From IMG/VR virus record IMGVR_UViG_3300032050_000525, positions 1 to 31,672 of that record: a stretch of 31,672 bases of DNA; one strand, 5' to 3'. A program made the position numbers and the translations under genes. The notes below the pieces were generated by a model. The model was not told the origin of the DNA, searched no databases, and saw nothing but the letters and a program-made list of their open reading frames with translations. This document shows, one piece after another, positions 3,669-17,087 of this stretch; position 1 is the first letter of the stretch; each line of letters opens with the position of its first letter. The stretch is from a virus.

Positions 3669-4223
3669 ATGACAACTCTGGTAGGTATCCAAGGACCTGA
3701 CTTCGTAGTACTAGCTGCTGATTCGCAGATCACCGATAACGATCAGCGCATTATTTCTACTCAGACACCTAAGATCGTAAGCGTAGGTGACTACCTGATA
3801 GGTATCACGGGCGACTCAAGACCTGGAGATATCCTCGCGTTTAATTGGAAACCACCAACGTATAAGAACTATGATCCGGTGGAGTGGATGGGTAAGAAGA
3901 TACTGCCAAGTATCTACGCTGCCTTTAAGGATAATGGATACGACCCATCCGATAAGGAAGCTAACTTCGCCTACCTCATTGCCTTCAATGGGATGTTATT
4001 TTCCATCGGATCAGATCTATCATTCAACGCCAGTGAACGTGGACTCTTTACAGCAGGTAGTGGTGGAGCATTTGCTCTGGGCTACCTCTACTCACTCAAA
4101 CCTGGTTCTTACAAGTCCCTGCTTATGTCTAAGGTAGTAGCAGAACGCGCAATAAAGATCGCGTCGGTACTTGACGTGAACACCTGTCCTCCGATTCAAT
4201 TAGTTACTCAACAGAAAGGATAA
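3669..4223 (+). CDS. Ntn-hydrolase, proteasome beta/HslV-like
   Basis: This 184-residue protein begins MTTLVGIQGPDFVVLAADSQ. Removing Met leaves an N-terminal Thr, as in proteasome beta subunits and HslV. With Thr2 as position 1, Asp18 falls at position 17 and Lys35 at 34, close to the catalytic Asp17/Lys33 of the family. A family GSGG motif (AGSGGAFALG, residues 129-138) sits where the conserved Ser129 region is expected. There is no propeptide and no membrane segment. Transcription appears leaderless. It heads the long plus-strand replication operon. The expected activity is threonine peptidase, possibly in a self-assembled ring or docked on a host unfoldase; substrates are unknown. A non-proteolytic Ntn relative cannot be excluded. 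Confidence 0.8.
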   Translation: MTTLVGIQGPDFVVLAADSQITDNDQRIISTQTPKIVSVGDYLIGITGDSRPGDILAFNWKPPTYKNYDPVEWMGKKILPSIYAAFKDNGYDPSDKEANFAYLIAFNGMLFSIGSDLSFNASERGLFTAGSGGAFALGYLYSLKPGSYKSLLMSKVVAERAIKIASVLDVNTCPPIQLVTQQKG

Positions 4224-5812: not shown

Positions 5813-6079
5813 GTGCGCGAGCCAAGGTTCTATGAGAATCCTGCTTGCGCTACAGTCGGTGGCGACTTCTGGTTCCCTGAAAAGGAGGCCGGAAGTTCTA
5901 ACACAACCGAGATGGTTATGGCTAAATCAATTTGTAGAAGGTGTCCACATCAAGCAGAGTGTGCTGAGTGGGGAATACAAAATGAGCAGCACGGTATCTG
6001 GGGTGGCGTTGCTGAAGGTGAACGCAGGTTAATCAGACGTAAACGACGCATAACATTAAAGGGGGAAGGCATTGCTTGA
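5813..6079 (+). CDS. whiB: WhiB-family Fe-S transcription factor
   Basis: 88 residues. The diagnostic WhiB arrangement is complete: C12, then C41-x2-C44-x5-C50 binding a [4Fe-4S] cluster, followed by the G[I/V]WGG turn (GIWGG, residues 61-65) and a basic DNA-contacting tail (RRLIRRKRRIT). The GTG at 5813 gives a standard-length protein. It overlaps the downstream ATPase gene by 8 bases. WhiB proteins act with the host sigma-70 region 4 at promoters. Phage copies are known to alter host regulation, and this one may switch phage or host transcription. It is the strongest marker of an actinobacterial host in the window. Confidence 0.93.
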   Translation: MREPRFYENPACATVGGDFWFPEKEAGSSNTTEMVMAKSICRRCPHQAECAEWGIQNEQHGIWGGVAEGERRLIRRKRRITLKGEGIA

Positions 6080-8919: not shown

Positions 8920-9303
8920 ATGGCAGATGATTCTACAGACTATACAGCATATGGGCTTCCAGATCCTCGAAGTGGATACGGCAACCGAGACTATCTTGAT
9001 ACGACCTATCGAGACAAGATAAGTCCGGAGTTCATTACAGATGTATGGCGCATTATGGATACCGCAGGTAACCTACTCATTCGTAAGCATCACGACTACG
9101 GCCCAAAGAATATTGCTCAGTCACCAGGTGGACCACTTAATGGTCTGCGTGTACGTATGTGGGATAAGATAGCTCGCATCAATAACCTTCTTGACTCAGG
9201 CGTGCAGCCTAGCAACGAGTCCTTGCGTGATTCATTCCTGGATCTACTTAACTATTCTGCTATTGCAATGATGGTCCTTGACGAGACGTGGCCTGATGAG
9301 TGA
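8920..9303 (+). CDS. Nmad1-like (DUF1599) nucleotide-modification-associated protein
   Basis: 127 residues. The segment from about residue 48 (LIRKHHDYGPKNIAQS ... LRVRMWDKIARINNLL ... SLRDSFLDLLNYS) has the KhxDYG, R..DK..RI and ES..D...LNY pattern of the Nucleotide modification associated domain 1 family, an all-helical, MazG-like group found in phages. AAAGAAGA precedes the ATG. It might act on nucleotides or support base modification, but no modifying enzyme is seen elsewhere in the window. Confidence 0.65.
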   Translation: MADDSTDYTAYGLPDPRSGYGNRDYLDTTYRDKISPEFITDVWRIMDTAGNLLIRKHHDYGPKNIAQSPGGPLNGLRVRMWDKIARINNLLDSGVQPSNESLRDSFLDLLNYSAIAMMVLDETWPDE

Positions 9304-9928
9304 TCTCCACCCTATTGTCTATGAGTTAGCGCCGTCAGTTGCTTATGCAATTCACCGGCGCTACAAGCATTGGGTAGAGAGAGATGATGTTACTCAGGAG
9401 TGTATAGCGTGGGCTATCACACGTAATGCCTACATCACAGAGCAGATGAATGTGGAAGATCCTAAGCAATTAGAGTATAACCAGAGACGTGTTGCTTGGC
9501 AGATGAAGCGTGCAGTCGAACGCTATGCACGCAAGGAGAAGGCCAACAAGTCTGGCTATCAGATCAACGATGAGGTTTACTACCAGACCTTTACCCTTGG
9601 TCAGCTACTGCCTTTCGTTATTGCATCAGTCATAGATGGCACAGTATTGGAGCAAGTGCAGGAGATGATTAAAGATGGTCAGCCACGCGGATCATCTAGT
9701 CCAGCAGAAGGTGGCAACCTACTCATCAGCCTGATAGATATTAAGAAGTGTTATCTCAAGTTAGATCAGAAGGATCAGACTGTATTACGTATGCGCCACT
9801 ATGATAACGCTACCTTGCAGCAGATAGCGCAGTACTTAGAGTGTGCAGTATCTACTGCTGATCGTAGATGCACCAACTCACTGCGTAGATTGCAAGAAGA
9901 ATTAGGTGGGGAGACACCCTTCCGATGA
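9296..9928 (+). CDS. Sigma-70-like factor (region 2/4-like)
   Basis: 210 residues from the ATG at 9296. An upstream in-frame TTG at 9278 exists but gives a longer overlap. The C-terminal ~50 residues (KLDQKDQTVLRMRHYDNATL, then QQIAQYLECAVSTADRRCTN and a final helix) match a sigma region 4 helix-turn-helix. The N-terminal part (RYKHWVERDDVTQECIAWA) resembles sigma region 2 helices in small sigma factors. A linker of about 90 residues separates them. A role as a phage sigma or anti-/co-sigma factor is plausible, which together with WhiB gives two candidate phage transcription regulators in this operon. Confidence 0.65.
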   Translation: MSDLHPIVYELAPSVAYAIHRRYKHWVERDDVTQECIAWAITRNAYITEQMNVEDPKQLEYNQRRVAWQMKRAVERYARKEKANKSGYQINDEVYYQTFTLGQLLPFVIASVIDGTVLEQVQEMIKDGQPRGSSSPAEGGNLLISLIDIKKCYLKLDQKDQTVLRMRHYDNATLQQIAQYLECAVSTADRRCTNSLRRLQEELGGETPFR

Positions 9929-13667: not shown

Positions 13668-13870
13668 GATAATTCCCCCAATTCTTTATGAAAATTCCAC
13701 TCTCTAGTACGCTCTAAGATTAAGCGGTTAAGCTCTACACGGGCGCACGATACCGTGCAATAACCCCGCGATAAGTGAGATAGTCTGCCCGTAAAGTGGA
13801 CGGGGGTAAATCCTGCGGGCATAAGGCAGCTAGCCCCGCACCCGTAACACTTAAACGCCACCGCGCTCAT
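13664..13870 (-). CDS. Zinc-binding protein, 68 aa
   Basis: Starts MSAVAFKCYGCGASCLMPAG. C8/C11 (with C15) and C38/C42 (YCTVSC) supply a zinc site, followed by a C-terminal helix (RVELNRLILERTREW). GAGGGC precedes the ATG, which overlaps the upstream stop (ATGA). Function unknown. Confidence 0.65.
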   Translation of the reverse strand: MSAVAFKCYGCGASCLMPAGFTPVHFTGRLSHLSRGYCTVSCARVELNRLILERTREWNFHKELGELS

Positions 13871-14304
13871 ATTCTGCCCTCACGATCTAGGGCGCAGCCG
13901 TGACAGTCGCATATCTGCGGGGCGATAGTACAATTCCACCGCGCAGACTTACGGGCATCTTTAAGAGTCGGATAGTATGCAATAGGTGAGCCGTCGCTAT
14001 CCTTTAACCATTCACGGCCTAGCTCACCATAAGGGCATAGGGTTACGATCTCATATTCACGGGGCAGATCGTCGCGCTTGCTTGATACGATCACCATTAA
14101 ACTATCGGCGCGGGGCGTAATGCTTACCGCCTTAAAGTCTGCGATCCTACTATTAAAAAACCGCATAGTGTCGCGGGTAAAGTAATAGCCCTGCGCCTTG
14201 CTTGCTATCTGCGATTCGTGCCAGATTTCGGCGGGGCGTGTAGGGTAATTTCGGCAGCCGTTGCAGCTGCAAGGGTAAACGGTGAGAGCCTTATCGTTTG
14301 ACAT
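13867..14304 (-). CDS. First gene of minus operon, Cys-rich protein, 145 aa
   Basis: A CxCxGC motif occurs near each end: PCSCNGC (C12, C14, C17) and ICDCHGC (C132, C134, C137), with C90 and C125 between. The middle has a strand-rich segment (FKAVSITPRADSLMVIVSS) like a small alpha/beta domain. The twin CxCxGC ends could fold together around a metal. GAAAGG lies 15 or so bases before the ATG, and a good promoter lies about 40 bases upstream. Unrecognised. Confidence 0.65.
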   Translation of the reverse strand: MSNDKALTVYPCSCNGCRNYPTRPAEIWHESQIASKAQGYYFTRDTMRFFNSRIADFKAVSITPRADSLMVIVSSKRDDLPREYEIVTLCPYGELGREWLKDSDGSPIAYYPTLKDARKSARWNCTIAPQICDCHGCALDREGRI

Positions 14305-14650: not shown

Positions 14651-14765
14651 GACAAACAGGCACCCGCCCATAGTGAAAACACCAGACACCATACCTATAC
14701 ACCCTCACAAAAAATATTTGCTAAAGTGAAAGCTAAAAGTGGCCTCTGAACAGGACTTATACCGG

Positions 14766-14781
14766 TGTGATAGACATCACA
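14766..14781. promoter_or_regulatory. Perfect CRP/GlxR-type operator TGTGA-N6-TCACA
   Basis: TGTGATAGACATCACA is an exact match to the consensus of the cAMP-receptor family (E. coli CRP, corynebacterial GlxR, mycobacterial Crp). The extended palindrome is TGTGAT-N4-ATCACA. Its centre lies about 60-62 bases upstream of the start expected from the -10 box at 14822-14827, the spacing of class I CRP activation, and that promoter has a poor -35. Confidence 0.7.
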
Positions 14782-14821
14782 GAAATAAAACGGGAAATGC
14801 GTTAAATTTCCTGCCTTAGTA

Positions 14822-14827
14822 TATAGT
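14822..14827 (+). promoter_or_regulatory. Candidate late promoter -10 box
   Basis: TATAGT in the context GTATATAGTAGGGG resembles the minus-strand boxes (GTATAGTAAGG). No good -35 is found 16-18 bases upstream, which would suit an activator-dependent promoter. Start would be about 14834, giving a ~220-base leader to the first late gene. Confidence 0.45.
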
Positions 14828-14833
14828 AGGGGA

Positions 14834-14945
14834 GCGAAGCGGGGAAGACCTTCGCGACCCGTACGGTTGCCTCTCACGAGGCCCCTAGGCCGAGTACTGA
14901 CTTACCCCTCAGTTCGCTGTAGCTCCTTCGGGCGTCAAGCCCGAA
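14834..14945 (+). other. Hairpin-rich leader of late transcript
   Basis: Three perfect stems occur in a row: GCGAAG/CTTCGC (14834-14839 with 14850-14855), GCCTC-TCAC-GAGGC (14869-14882) and TTCGGGC-GTCAA-GCCCGAA (14927-14945), followed by ACCG-CAG-CGGT (14945-14955) and a CTTTT. The first stem begins where transcription is expected to start. It could be a stabilising 5' leader, a small RNA or a packaging recognition structure; I cannot assign a known RNA family. Confidence 0.45.
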
Positions 14946-14991
14946 CCGCAGCGGTGCCTTTTAGTCGGGTGAGGTCTATCTAATACTAGAT

Positions 14992-15017
14992 CCGCTAAAT
15001 TACTCAGCCCGCTAAAT
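14992..15017 (+). repeat. 9-base direct repeat CCGCTAAAT
   Basis: CCGCTAAAT at 14992-15000 and again at 15009-15017, 17 bases apart, about 40 bases before the first late gene. Possibly a protein-binding site; short enough that chance is not excluded. Confidence 0.35.
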
Positions 15018-15056
15018 AAAATCACTTCCGGCCCAGCCGGTCCTAGGAGAATAACA

Positions 15057-15212
15057 ATGGCAACTAGAAAACCAAGACCAGTTTTACCTAAAGTAAAACC
15101 AACCCTTTCTGCTGTAAGACCTGTTTCTCCTGGTCGTACTCCTAAAACACCAAAAGATTTTTCGGGCGTTAAAATAGCTCCAAGAGCCGGAAGAGTCCGT
15201 CCAACTAAGTAA
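15057..15212 (+). CDS. Small basic Pro/Lys-rich protein, 51 aa
   Basis: MATRKPRPVLPKVKPTLSAV, then RPVSPGRTPKTPKDFSGVKI and APRAGRVRPTK. Highly basic and Pro-rich, almost certainly disordered. AGGAG precedes the ATG by eight bases. It is the first gene of the late operon, just before the large terminase. It could be a DNA-binding packaging accessory, but it does not look like a small terminase. Confidence 0.65.
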   Translation: MATRKPRPVLPKVKPTLSAVRPVSPGRTPKTPKDFSGVKIAPRAGRVRPTK

Positions 15213-15224
15213 ACTGGGAGTCTA

Positions 15225-17087
15225 ATGGCTGAGAACTCAGCAGACATCGCCAAGAGAATTATCCTCGGCGCTGTCGCAGAAGGTATGACAGTTGAGGCAG
15301 CTACTGCCTCTGCTGGCAAGTCCATTAAGACTTATGAGTATTACCGCCGCACAGATAAGATATTTGCAGATAAGGTGGATCGAACCCGCCTAGGGTTGAA
15401 GGATAAGCAGTTCGCTTCCGGCGATGCTCACGACCTGACCTTCGCAGAGTTTCGCCAGAACTTCCTCCACAGTAAGACCTTCCCACATCAGCAAAACATT
15501 GTAGATGTGATCGAAGGCAGAGAACCTGGGTGGCTACACCCCAGTATGAAGTTTGAGCCAGGACTTGCAGCAAACCGCGTCCTGATAAATATCCCGCCAA
15601 ACCACGCCAAGTCCATTACGATCACTGTGGACTACGTCACCTGGCAGGTATGTAGGAATCCTAACTTTAGAGTTCTTATTGTATCCCAGACGCAGCAACT
15701 AGCTGCCGACTTTCTCTACGCCATCAAGCAACGTCTGACTCACCCAATGTATGCAGATCTTCAGAGCGCTTATGCTGCTGGCGTAGGGTTTAATTCCAAG
15801 TCTGCTTCGTGGCAGGCAACCCGTGTCACCTTTGGTGATGAACTTCGTGAGTCATCTGAAAAGGACCCGAACATCGAAGCCGTCGGTATCGGTGGTCAGA
15901 TCTACGGTAAGCGTGCCGATATGATTATCGTAGACGATGCGGTCACCTTAAAGAACGCTAATGAGTTTGAGAAGCAGATCCGCTGGTTGACCCAGGACGT
16001 GCGATCCCGTTTGAACCCTACGGGTAAACTGATTGTTATTGGAACTCGTGTAGCCTCGGTGGATCTATACCGCGAGCTACGCTCTGAGGACCGCTACCCT
16101 GGTGGTCAGGTTCCTTGGAAGTATCTAGCAATGCCGGCCCTTCTTACAGCCGATGAAGATCCTGACAAGTGGGAAACCTTATGGCCTTTCTCGGACGCTC
16201 CATTTGATGGACAGTTAGAATCTGATAAGAACGAAGACGGCCTATACCCTCGCTGGTCTGGACGCAACCTTTACAATGAACGCCAAGCGATGGATGCAAG
16301 CACCTGGGCTTTGGTATATCAGCAGCAGGACGTTTCTGAAAATGCTGCCTTTGATCCCGTGTGTGTTAAAGGATCTATTGACGGTATGCGTAAGGCAGGC
16401 AACCTAGTTGCCGGTCACCCAGGACATCCACGAGACTTAAACGGCTTTACTTATATTTGCGGTCTTGATCCTGCAATGATTGGCGATACCGCAGCTATCT
16501 GCTATGCCATTGACCGATCAACGAGCAAGAGGTACATAGTAGATGCTATTAAAATTAGCCGCCCGTCTCCAGCCGATATCCGTAATCTTATTTTTGATTG
16601 GACATCCCTCTACTCCCCCTCAGAGTGGATCGTCGAAAAGAACGCCTTCCAATCCTTCTTAACCCAGGACGAAGGTATCCGTATGCACTTAGCCTCACGC
16701 GGAGTGCAGTTCAAGGAACACCACACTGGTTCTAACAAGTGGGATGCCGGCTTCGGTGTAGCTTCTATGTCTACCCTCTTTGGTACTAAGCAGTTTGATG
16801 GTAAGCACCATCGAGATAACTTAATACATCTGCCATCAGATCAGACTGAGAATGTCAAGGCTTTGATTGAGCAGTTAATTACCTGGACTCCAACGACTAA
16901 GGGTAAGACCGATATGGTGATGGCTCTCTGGTTCTGCGAGATCCGAGCACGTGAGATGCTCAACTATGGCAAGTATGCCACCCATCATATGAAAAATCCA
17001 TTCCTATCTCGCCAAGAGATAGGCAAGCGAACAGTCATCAACTTGGAAGAAGCGTTCGCAGAACAAAACAAAATGAGAGTAATCTAA
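15225..17087 (+). CDS. terL: Terminase large subunit
   Basis: 620 residues; the packaging motor ATPase/nuclease. The ATPase shows an atypical Walker A (IPPNHAKS, residues 123-130, Ala in place of the usual Gly), Walker B MIIVDD (233-238) and a VIGTR coupling-type motif (271-275). The RNase H-like nuclease has D415 (ICGLDPAMIGD), E471 (EWIVEKN) and D563 (KGKTDMVMALW). The first ~60 residues (RIILGAVAEGMTVEAATASA, then GKSIKTYEYYRRTDKIFADK) look like a helix-turn-helix of the small-terminase type, fused N-terminally, and no separate small terminase gene is visible nearby. GGGAG lies before the ATG at 15225. Confidence 0.92.
   Translation: MAENSADIAKRIILGAVAEGMTVEAATASAGKSIKTYEYYRRTDKIFADKVDRTRLGLKDKQFASGDAHDLTFAEFRQNFLHSKTFPHQQNIVDVIEGREPGWLHPSMKFEPGLAANRVLINIPPNHAKSITITVDYVTWQVCRNPNFRVLIVSQTQQLAADFLYAIKQRLTHPMYADLQSAYAAGVGFNSKSASWQATRVTFGDELRESSEKDPNIEAVGIGGQIYGKRADMIIVDDAVTLKNANEFEKQIRWLTQDVRSRLNPTGKLIVIGTRVASVDLYRELRSEDRYPGGQVPWKYLAMPALLTADEDPDKWETLWPFSDAPFDGQLESDKNEDGLYPRWSGRNLYNERQAMDASTWALVYQQQDVSENAAFDPVCVKGSIDGMRKAGNLVAGHPGHPRDLNGFTYICGLDPAMIGDTAAICYAIDRSTSKRYIVDAIKISRPSPADIRNLIFDWTSLYSPSEWIVEKNAFQSFLTQDEGIRMHLASRGVQFKEHHTGSNKWDAGFGVASMSTLFGTKQFDGKHHRDNLIHLPSDQTENVKALIEQLITWTPTTKGKTDMVMALWFCEIRAREMLNYGKYATHHMKNPFLSRQEIGKRTVINLEEAFAEQNKMRVI

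Follow-up and report, generated by a model that had tools for sequence, protein, structure and literature searches.

Class I CRP promoters, typified by the lac promoter of Escherichia coli, carry the CRP site centred at -61.5, 49.5 bases before the -10 hexamer. The common view of phage late genes is that factors encoded by the phage itself turn them on. The known target promoters of the GlxR/Crp proteins are those of host genes, and their motifs are GTG-N8-CAC for GlxR of Corynebacterium glutamicum and GTG-N6-GNCAC for Crp of Streptomyces coelicolor, according to the available part of the source (PMC10033298), where binding of Streptomyces Crp itself to its targets was not demonstrable by gel shift and GlxR was used instead. 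No phage target of GlxR/Crp, and no paper on Crp sites in actinophages, was found in the open-access literature. The nearest case found is E. coli phage T1, in which cAMP-CRP acts as a repressor of pir (and dam, recE) and governs lysogeny, as described in the available part of that report (PMC6737242).

The locus considered here lies in a window of 31,672 bases, the whole stretch of DNA that was analysed, which comes from a virus record. It shares with lac-type class I promoters a TGTGA-N6-TCACA site at about -60, a recognisable -10 and the lack of a -35. It differs from them in being a putative late promoter of a phage in actinobacteria, in a centre-to-hexamer distance of 47.5-48.5 in most freshwater loci (49.5 in lac), in an extra inverted repeat at the -35 region, in a structured RNA as the predicted first product, and in probably not being gated by cAMP in freshwater hosts. 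The operator fits GTG-N8-CAC, as GlxR targets do, and the sites of related Streptomyces phages fit GTG-N6-GNCAC, as Streptomyces Crp targets do, insofar as the available part of the source gives these motifs (PMC10033298); unlike those promoters of host genes, the operator here belongs to a phage. With phage T1 the locus would share phage promoters responsive to host CRP, while differing from what is described in the available part of that report (PMC6737242) in a conserved, class I-placed site ahead of a packaging operon.

The palindrome and its putative promoter

The palindrome TGTGATAGACATCACA matches TGTGA-N6-TCACA exactly, as the original prediction stated, and is the single exact occurrence in the window (Table 1). 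Dinucleotide shuffles contain the exact motif 0.03 times on average, with at least one copy in 3 of 100. When up to two mismatches are allowed, 14 matches are obtained against 16.4 expected, which is no excess, so that only the exact site stands out. About 750 bases separate a leftward gene from a small rightward ORF, and the palindrome is situated in this gap. Beyond the ORF comes the gene for the terminase large subunit (TerL), with which the large genes of the rightward late operon begin. The WhiB protein and the sigma region 4 protein encoded elsewhere in the window indicate an actinobacterial host. The protein encoded at 3669-4223 partly matches a proteasome subunit (PF00227, E 8.5e-7), and a tRNA/tmRNA search of the window returned none.

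Table 1. Positions of the features discussed, in window coordinates.
Feature	Positions	Strand	Basis or remark
WhiB protein	5813-6079		
Sigma region 4 protein	9278-9928		
Leftward gene	13867-14304	-	left border of the gap
Element A, CCCTCACAAAAAATATTTGCTAAAGTGAAAG	14702-14732		AT-rich, highly conserved; spacing to the operator variable
Element B, CTCTGAACAGGACTTA	14744-14759		nearly fixed spacing upstream of the operator
Crp/GlxR-type palindromic operator, TGTGATAGACATCACA	14766-14781		sequence and conservation in relatives
Inverted repeat, CGGGAAAT-N7-ATTTCCTG	14791-14813		covers the -35 region; symmetric changes in relatives
-10-like hexamer, TATAGT	14822-14827	+	sequence; operator spacing fixed in 112 of 123 loci with the site
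Conserved structured RNA, about 146 bases (leader or small RNA)	14825-14970	+	covariance model, relatives
Small basic proline-rich ORF, 51 aa	15057-15212	+	AGGAG ahead; first ORF past the RNA
Terminase large subunit (TerL)	15225-17087	+	phrog_38, E 5.6e-65

The centre of the site, at 14773.5, stands 48.5 bases ahead of the TATAGT hexamer. If +1 is placed twelve bases after the start of the hexamer, the operator centre falls at about -60.5, approximately the class I position and in agreement with the distance of some 61 bases first proposed; the transcript itself is predicted from the sequence to begin at about 14829-14834. The further claim that the promoter lacks a good -35 is borne out by a consensus scan, which detected no sigma-70-type -35/-10 pair on the + strand between 14300 and 15300.

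This geometry recurs among relatives. Of 123 distinct upstream sequences, all with no more than one mismatch in the site, 112 place the site centre 50.5 or 51.5 bases ahead of the AGTA of the -10 region, and the remaining 11 place it at 63.5-66.5, that is, 12-16 bases further off. Measured to the TATAGT/TACAGT hexamer, the distance in the 112 loci is 47.5-48.5. A pattern scan permitting gaps of 25-50 returned one gap length in 77 of 80 among the matches listed. The distance from operator to hexamer is thus within 2 bases of the lac class I value in the window, in 112 of the 123 loci and in all nine Streptomyces phage regions described below, and the arrangement, as read from the sequence, closely resembles that of class I Crp promoters.

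Conservation of the site among relatives

At least 80 relatives of the record were identified through TerL. From them a set of 71 upstream regions, the window included, was drawn (6 of 80 loci fell outside the upstream alignment, and 4 of 75 rows lacked sufficient length at the site), and the best site in these regions has no mismatch in 40, one in 24 and two in 7. One of the six loci outside the alignment, L029, carries an exact site, and a subgroup of seven loci (L021-L027) has only a site with two mismatches. L006 is counted within the 71 despite an end that resembles an assembly artefact: its positions 1-194, at the end of a 40,683-base contig, repeat the control region in inverted orientation and probably arose in this way.

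A second set was assembled by scanning viral contigs with the downstream RNA motif, so that neither the site nor TerL served for the selection; some contigs are common to the two sets. Among the matches listed, 7 of 115 were too short, and merging of identical rows left 103 non-redundant loci, in which the site has no mismatch in 59, one in 33, two in 9 and three in 2. At most one mismatch is therefore found in 92 of these 103 loci among the matches listed, compared with 1.3% of mononucleotide shuffles and 1 of 103 reversed sequences. A count over 136 rows gave at most one mismatch in 125, two in 7 and at least four in 4. In 99 of the 103 loci, nine of the ten arm positions are conserved at 88-100% and the tenth at 72%, against 30-75% for the N6 spacer, a comparison that favours the arms since the sites were picked as best matches.

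Whole phage records point the same way. The exact motif occurs in 17 of 22, once in each except for two copies in Planktophila phage F5, and the reversed control pattern in none; in ten IMG/VR records it is at the site upstream of TerL, and in six Streptomyces records it is upstream of the terminase. Five records (G004, G005, G006, G009 and W04) lack an exact site and have a one-mismatch site at the same place. The search of related phages for the site at the same position, suggested along with the original prediction, is thus clearly positive, with at most one mismatch in 92 of the 103 loci and the spacing fixed in 112 of the 123, and this conservation implies function.

Streptomyces and Planktophila phages

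The arrangement extends to isolated phages with named hosts. Streptomyces phages of the Beephvirinae, such as Abafar and Manuel, have a TerL 42-43% identical to that of the record, and Abafar is virulent according to the available part of its description (PMC11536984). Manuel and RosePharie were isolated on S. lividans. The order before the terminase is the same in these phages: two sites, one distal and one proximal, come first, then an inverted repeat, then a TATA box with a G-rich start after it, and last an untranslated stretch. Both sites have at most one mismatch in all nine regions fetched, and the centre of the proximal site is 48.5-50.5 bases before the TATA hexamer in all nine. In eight of these regions, scanned on both strands, both sites match the GTG-N6-GNCAC motif as given in the available part of PMC10033298, with no other match in the first 690 bases; in the ninth, L173, a scan of one strand gave no match.

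The phage records closest by TerL (46% identical) are OX376641 and OX376640, the Planktophila phages F5 (LanE43-AprF5) and E7 (LanE43-AprE7), both of which carry whiB and a sigma-70 factor and infect a host of 46.5% GC, as stated in the available part of their report (PMC10202952). Like the record, they have an exact TGTGA-N6-TCACA upstream of TerL; unlike it, their sites lie 710-790 bases before TerL, keep no fixed spacing to a TATA box and are accompanied by no match to the RNA model. In the regions from the Streptomyces and Planktophila phages the RNA model (R1) had no match at E values up to 10, so no shared RNA is claimed across these phages.

The inverted repeat and elements A and B

The inverted repeat between operator and hexamer is maintained by paired change. 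In its own register 87% of cells are paired, compared with 33-63% when the arms are slid (63 distinct segments), and symmetric changes include CGCTAAAT/ATTTTAGCG and CGCGAAA/TTTCGCG. The repeat could be a hairpin or, alternatively, a DNA site for a phage regulator that co-evolves with it; mismatches of the G-T and A-C types are both present, so that these data do not choose between the two. The Streptomyces phages have a different inverted repeat at the equivalent place, perfect in RosePharie.

Two further elements are found upstream. Element B, whose usual form among relatives is CTCTGACCTGCGGTTATA, is located 27.5 or 28.5 bases from the site centre in 102 of the 123 loci and 37.5 bases from it in 11, and was not found in 10. 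In a subgroup comprising L060, L063, L072 and L075, it stands in the reverse orientation (CTGACCTGCGG), which suggests a protein-binding DNA element. The TAAAGT of element A is 38.5-67.5 bases from the site across the 123 loci (not found in 2), a spacing too variable for a -35 or a sigma site, and these roles were rejected.

A structured RNA at the start of the predicted transcript

Directly downstream of the -10, at the start of the predicted transcript, lies the conserved RNA. Its model, R1, was built from the window and 38 loci (39 of 60 kept after thinning, with duplicates merged), the divergent L014, L015, L016, L020, L037, L049, L064, L071 and L078 being left out of the alignment, together with L006, L038 and L055. 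It matches 73 of the 80 TerL loci listed at E up to 0.01, nine of these 73 weakly.

The secondary structure is moderately supported by the sequence comparison. The fold of 14826-15057 has z = -2.29, with 5 of 200 shuffles as good, and the named helices score 0.148 for covariation, compared with 0.074 for shuffled alignments (0 of 500 as high), the score falling when the helices are slid. Helix pairs changed on both sides (6 against 5.2 in shuffles; 200 of 500) and further pair types in the helices (13 against 14.8; 479 of 500) are not above the shuffled level. Ranking by mutual information did not enrich for canonical pairs in general: of the 70 highest pairs 14 (20%) are mostly canonical, no more than the background of 21%, although the top pair is G-C/C-G.

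No Rfam covariance model matched the window up to E = 1, and a known Rfam family was accordingly rejected for this RNA; the relative L053 gave a single Rfam match, at E 0.6, far below the gathering score and on the other strand. That the RNA generally ends at an intrinsic terminator was likewise rejected, as a hairpin of at least four pairs right before a U-run is present in 27 of 69 loci and absent from the window. Terminator-like matches were seen at L023 and L060.

Host Crp and the question of cAMP

The host of the record would belong to an actinobacterial class, and small genomes of that class, judged by size and GC, probably represent the host order. A Crp-family regulator, which the original prediction presupposed in the host, is available in this putative host class: a GlxR/Crp homologue (E up to 1e-20) is encoded in 371 of 393 genomes of the class, which is that of a known actinomycete. 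In five small genomes (1.4-1.5 Mb; 45-48% GC at the loci read) the homologue is present at 54-56% identity and retains GASRETVNKAL unchanged. A subset of the small genomes on the 393-genome list, 18-19 in number, was picked by size, and a Crp homologue is present in 18 of 19 of these host-like genomes (1.2-1.5 Mb).

Signs of cAMP signalling are scarce in the same genomes. A class III adenylate cyclase was found in none of the 19, the control actinomycete G014 being positive, and a class I adenylate cyclase in none of 20 (the 19 and G014). Of 18 small host-like genomes one contains the exact motif, and the reversed control has 4 matches in 3 genomes. With one mismatch allowed, 11 small genomes contain 183 matches against 152 for the control and G014 contains 60 against 15; the Corynebacterium-like G371 also reaches only 25 against 23, which makes this enrichment test a blunt one. 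G291, G235, G307, G209, G315 and other small genomes of the class Actinomycetes have a Crp homologue and almost no perfect palindromes, and no class I or III cyclase was found in them.

The putative freshwater hosts thus have Crp, and there are few indications in them of cAMP synthesis or of an extensive TGTGA-N6-TCACA regulon. The claim that late genes are tied to cAMP signalling fared poorly, with a class I or III cyclase in 0 of 19 small genomes and no clear motif excess, and it is doubtful that the site reports cAMP in freshwater hosts. The residues FGEL..FDPGPRT and RRTN, which we take to line the cyclic-nucleotide pocket of the Crp homologue, look largely kept in the small genomes, and a ligand for the freshwater-host Crp is therefore possible.

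A Crp encoded by the phage itself was considered and set aside: the cNMP-binding domain (PF00027) was found in none of 14 freshwater phage records and the Crp HTH domain (PF00325) in none of 21 phage records, those of Streptomyces and Planktophila included, these being the two models searched. A search of genome contigs with TerL returned no relative and no host link.

Proposed mechanism and alternatives

Judged from sequence and conservation, the best explanation is that host Crp acts as an activator of late transcription, to which we assign a probability of about 0.75. The predicted binding, activation and start site, the presumed host and the putative roles of the repeat and the RNA would fit together as follows. 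The palindrome would be the operator for a host protein of the Crp/GlxR family. Bound about 60 bases upstream, this protein would allow RNA polymerase to use a weak promoter by touching the alpha subunit of the enzyme. This promoter would drive the RNA and, either directly or through read-through, the small ORF, the terminase and the other late genes. A second, phage-encoded regulator that sets the timing would most likely bind the inverted repeat at the -35 region, and in the freshwater phages Crp would probably be a constitutive co-activator and not a sensor of cAMP.

Alternatively, host Crp could bind and repress, or act as a silencer or anti-repressor, with the late genes off until Crp is displaced or titrated. 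Repression of phage T1 promoters by cAMP-CRP, as described in the available part of that report (PMC6737242), sets a precedent, and the presence of an inverted repeat at the -35 region lends plausibility to a second regulator. Activation is the better fit to a fixed distance of the class I kind and to the lack of a -35, and this alternative is considered unlikely.

A role in packaging is more improbable still. Here Crp or the terminase would bind the palindrome and bend or mark the DNA near a genome end, for which IHF at lambda cosB serves as a model of protein binding at a packaging site. Fifteen distinct contigs of relatives end 246-288 bases upstream of the AGTA, five of them exactly at the start of GNNNGCCC, and this clustering suggests a candidate physical genome end (cos) about 190-230 bases left of the palindrome. 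The spacing between the site and element B, which is on that side, is nearly fixed as well. Against such a role, the operator is fixed in its spacing to the -10 on its right and variable in its spacing to element A on its left, 29 of the 80 TerL loci listed reach at least 5 kb upstream of TerL, and the operator equals the Crp motif published in the available part of PMC10033298, in the Streptomyces phages too.

The position of the contig-end cluster also led to the rejection of the palindrome as the cos/pac end itself. The cluster corresponds to about 14570 of the window (GCAAGCCC) and to the starts of L004, L005, L026, L059 and L244; L003, L014, L015, L252 and L269 are single contigs that end within tens of bases of the palindrome at no common point. 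The first 100 bases of L052, L031, L064, L026 and L221, inside the presumed genome end, contain repeated TTATCCACA (DnaA-box-like), in place of which the window and others have TAGACC repeats, and these repeats are a possible replication origin.

Comparably remote is the idea that another dimeric protein of phage or host, sharing the half-site, reads the palindrome. The phage does encode WhiB, the sigma-like protein and many small proteins of unassigned role, yet a search of phage records detected neither a cNMP-binding nor a Crp HTH domain, homologues of Crp are nearly universal in the class, and the motif is the Crp/GlxR motif of the available part of PMC10033298. That the palindrome is a functionless accident, in a window with no excess of sites at up to two mismatches, is already contradicted by conservation and spacing across relatives and merits almost no credence.

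Implications

Activation by host Crp accordingly remains the preferred reading of the locus. Of the original prediction, the Crp/GlxR-type site at about class I distance is supported and the tie to cAMP is not, while the structured RNA and the inverted repeat at the -35 had been absent from it. A broader proposal, which we advance tentatively and hold to be rather less than an even prospect, is that two lineages of actinophages, the freshwater one, probably infecting Nanopelagicales, and the Streptomyces Beephvirinae, may long have used host Crp as an obligatory late activator. In streamlined freshwater hosts this would operate without cAMP, at an ideal palindrome nearly absent from host-like genomes, and the product driven would be a new structured RNA, one that controls expression of the packaging operon or accompanies it.

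If this is true, virus production would be tied to a single host protein that is a global regulator, and a handle would be gained on the phages of one of the most abundant groups of freshwater bacteria. The RNA between the promoter and the terminase would add a further conserved element, one without a known family.
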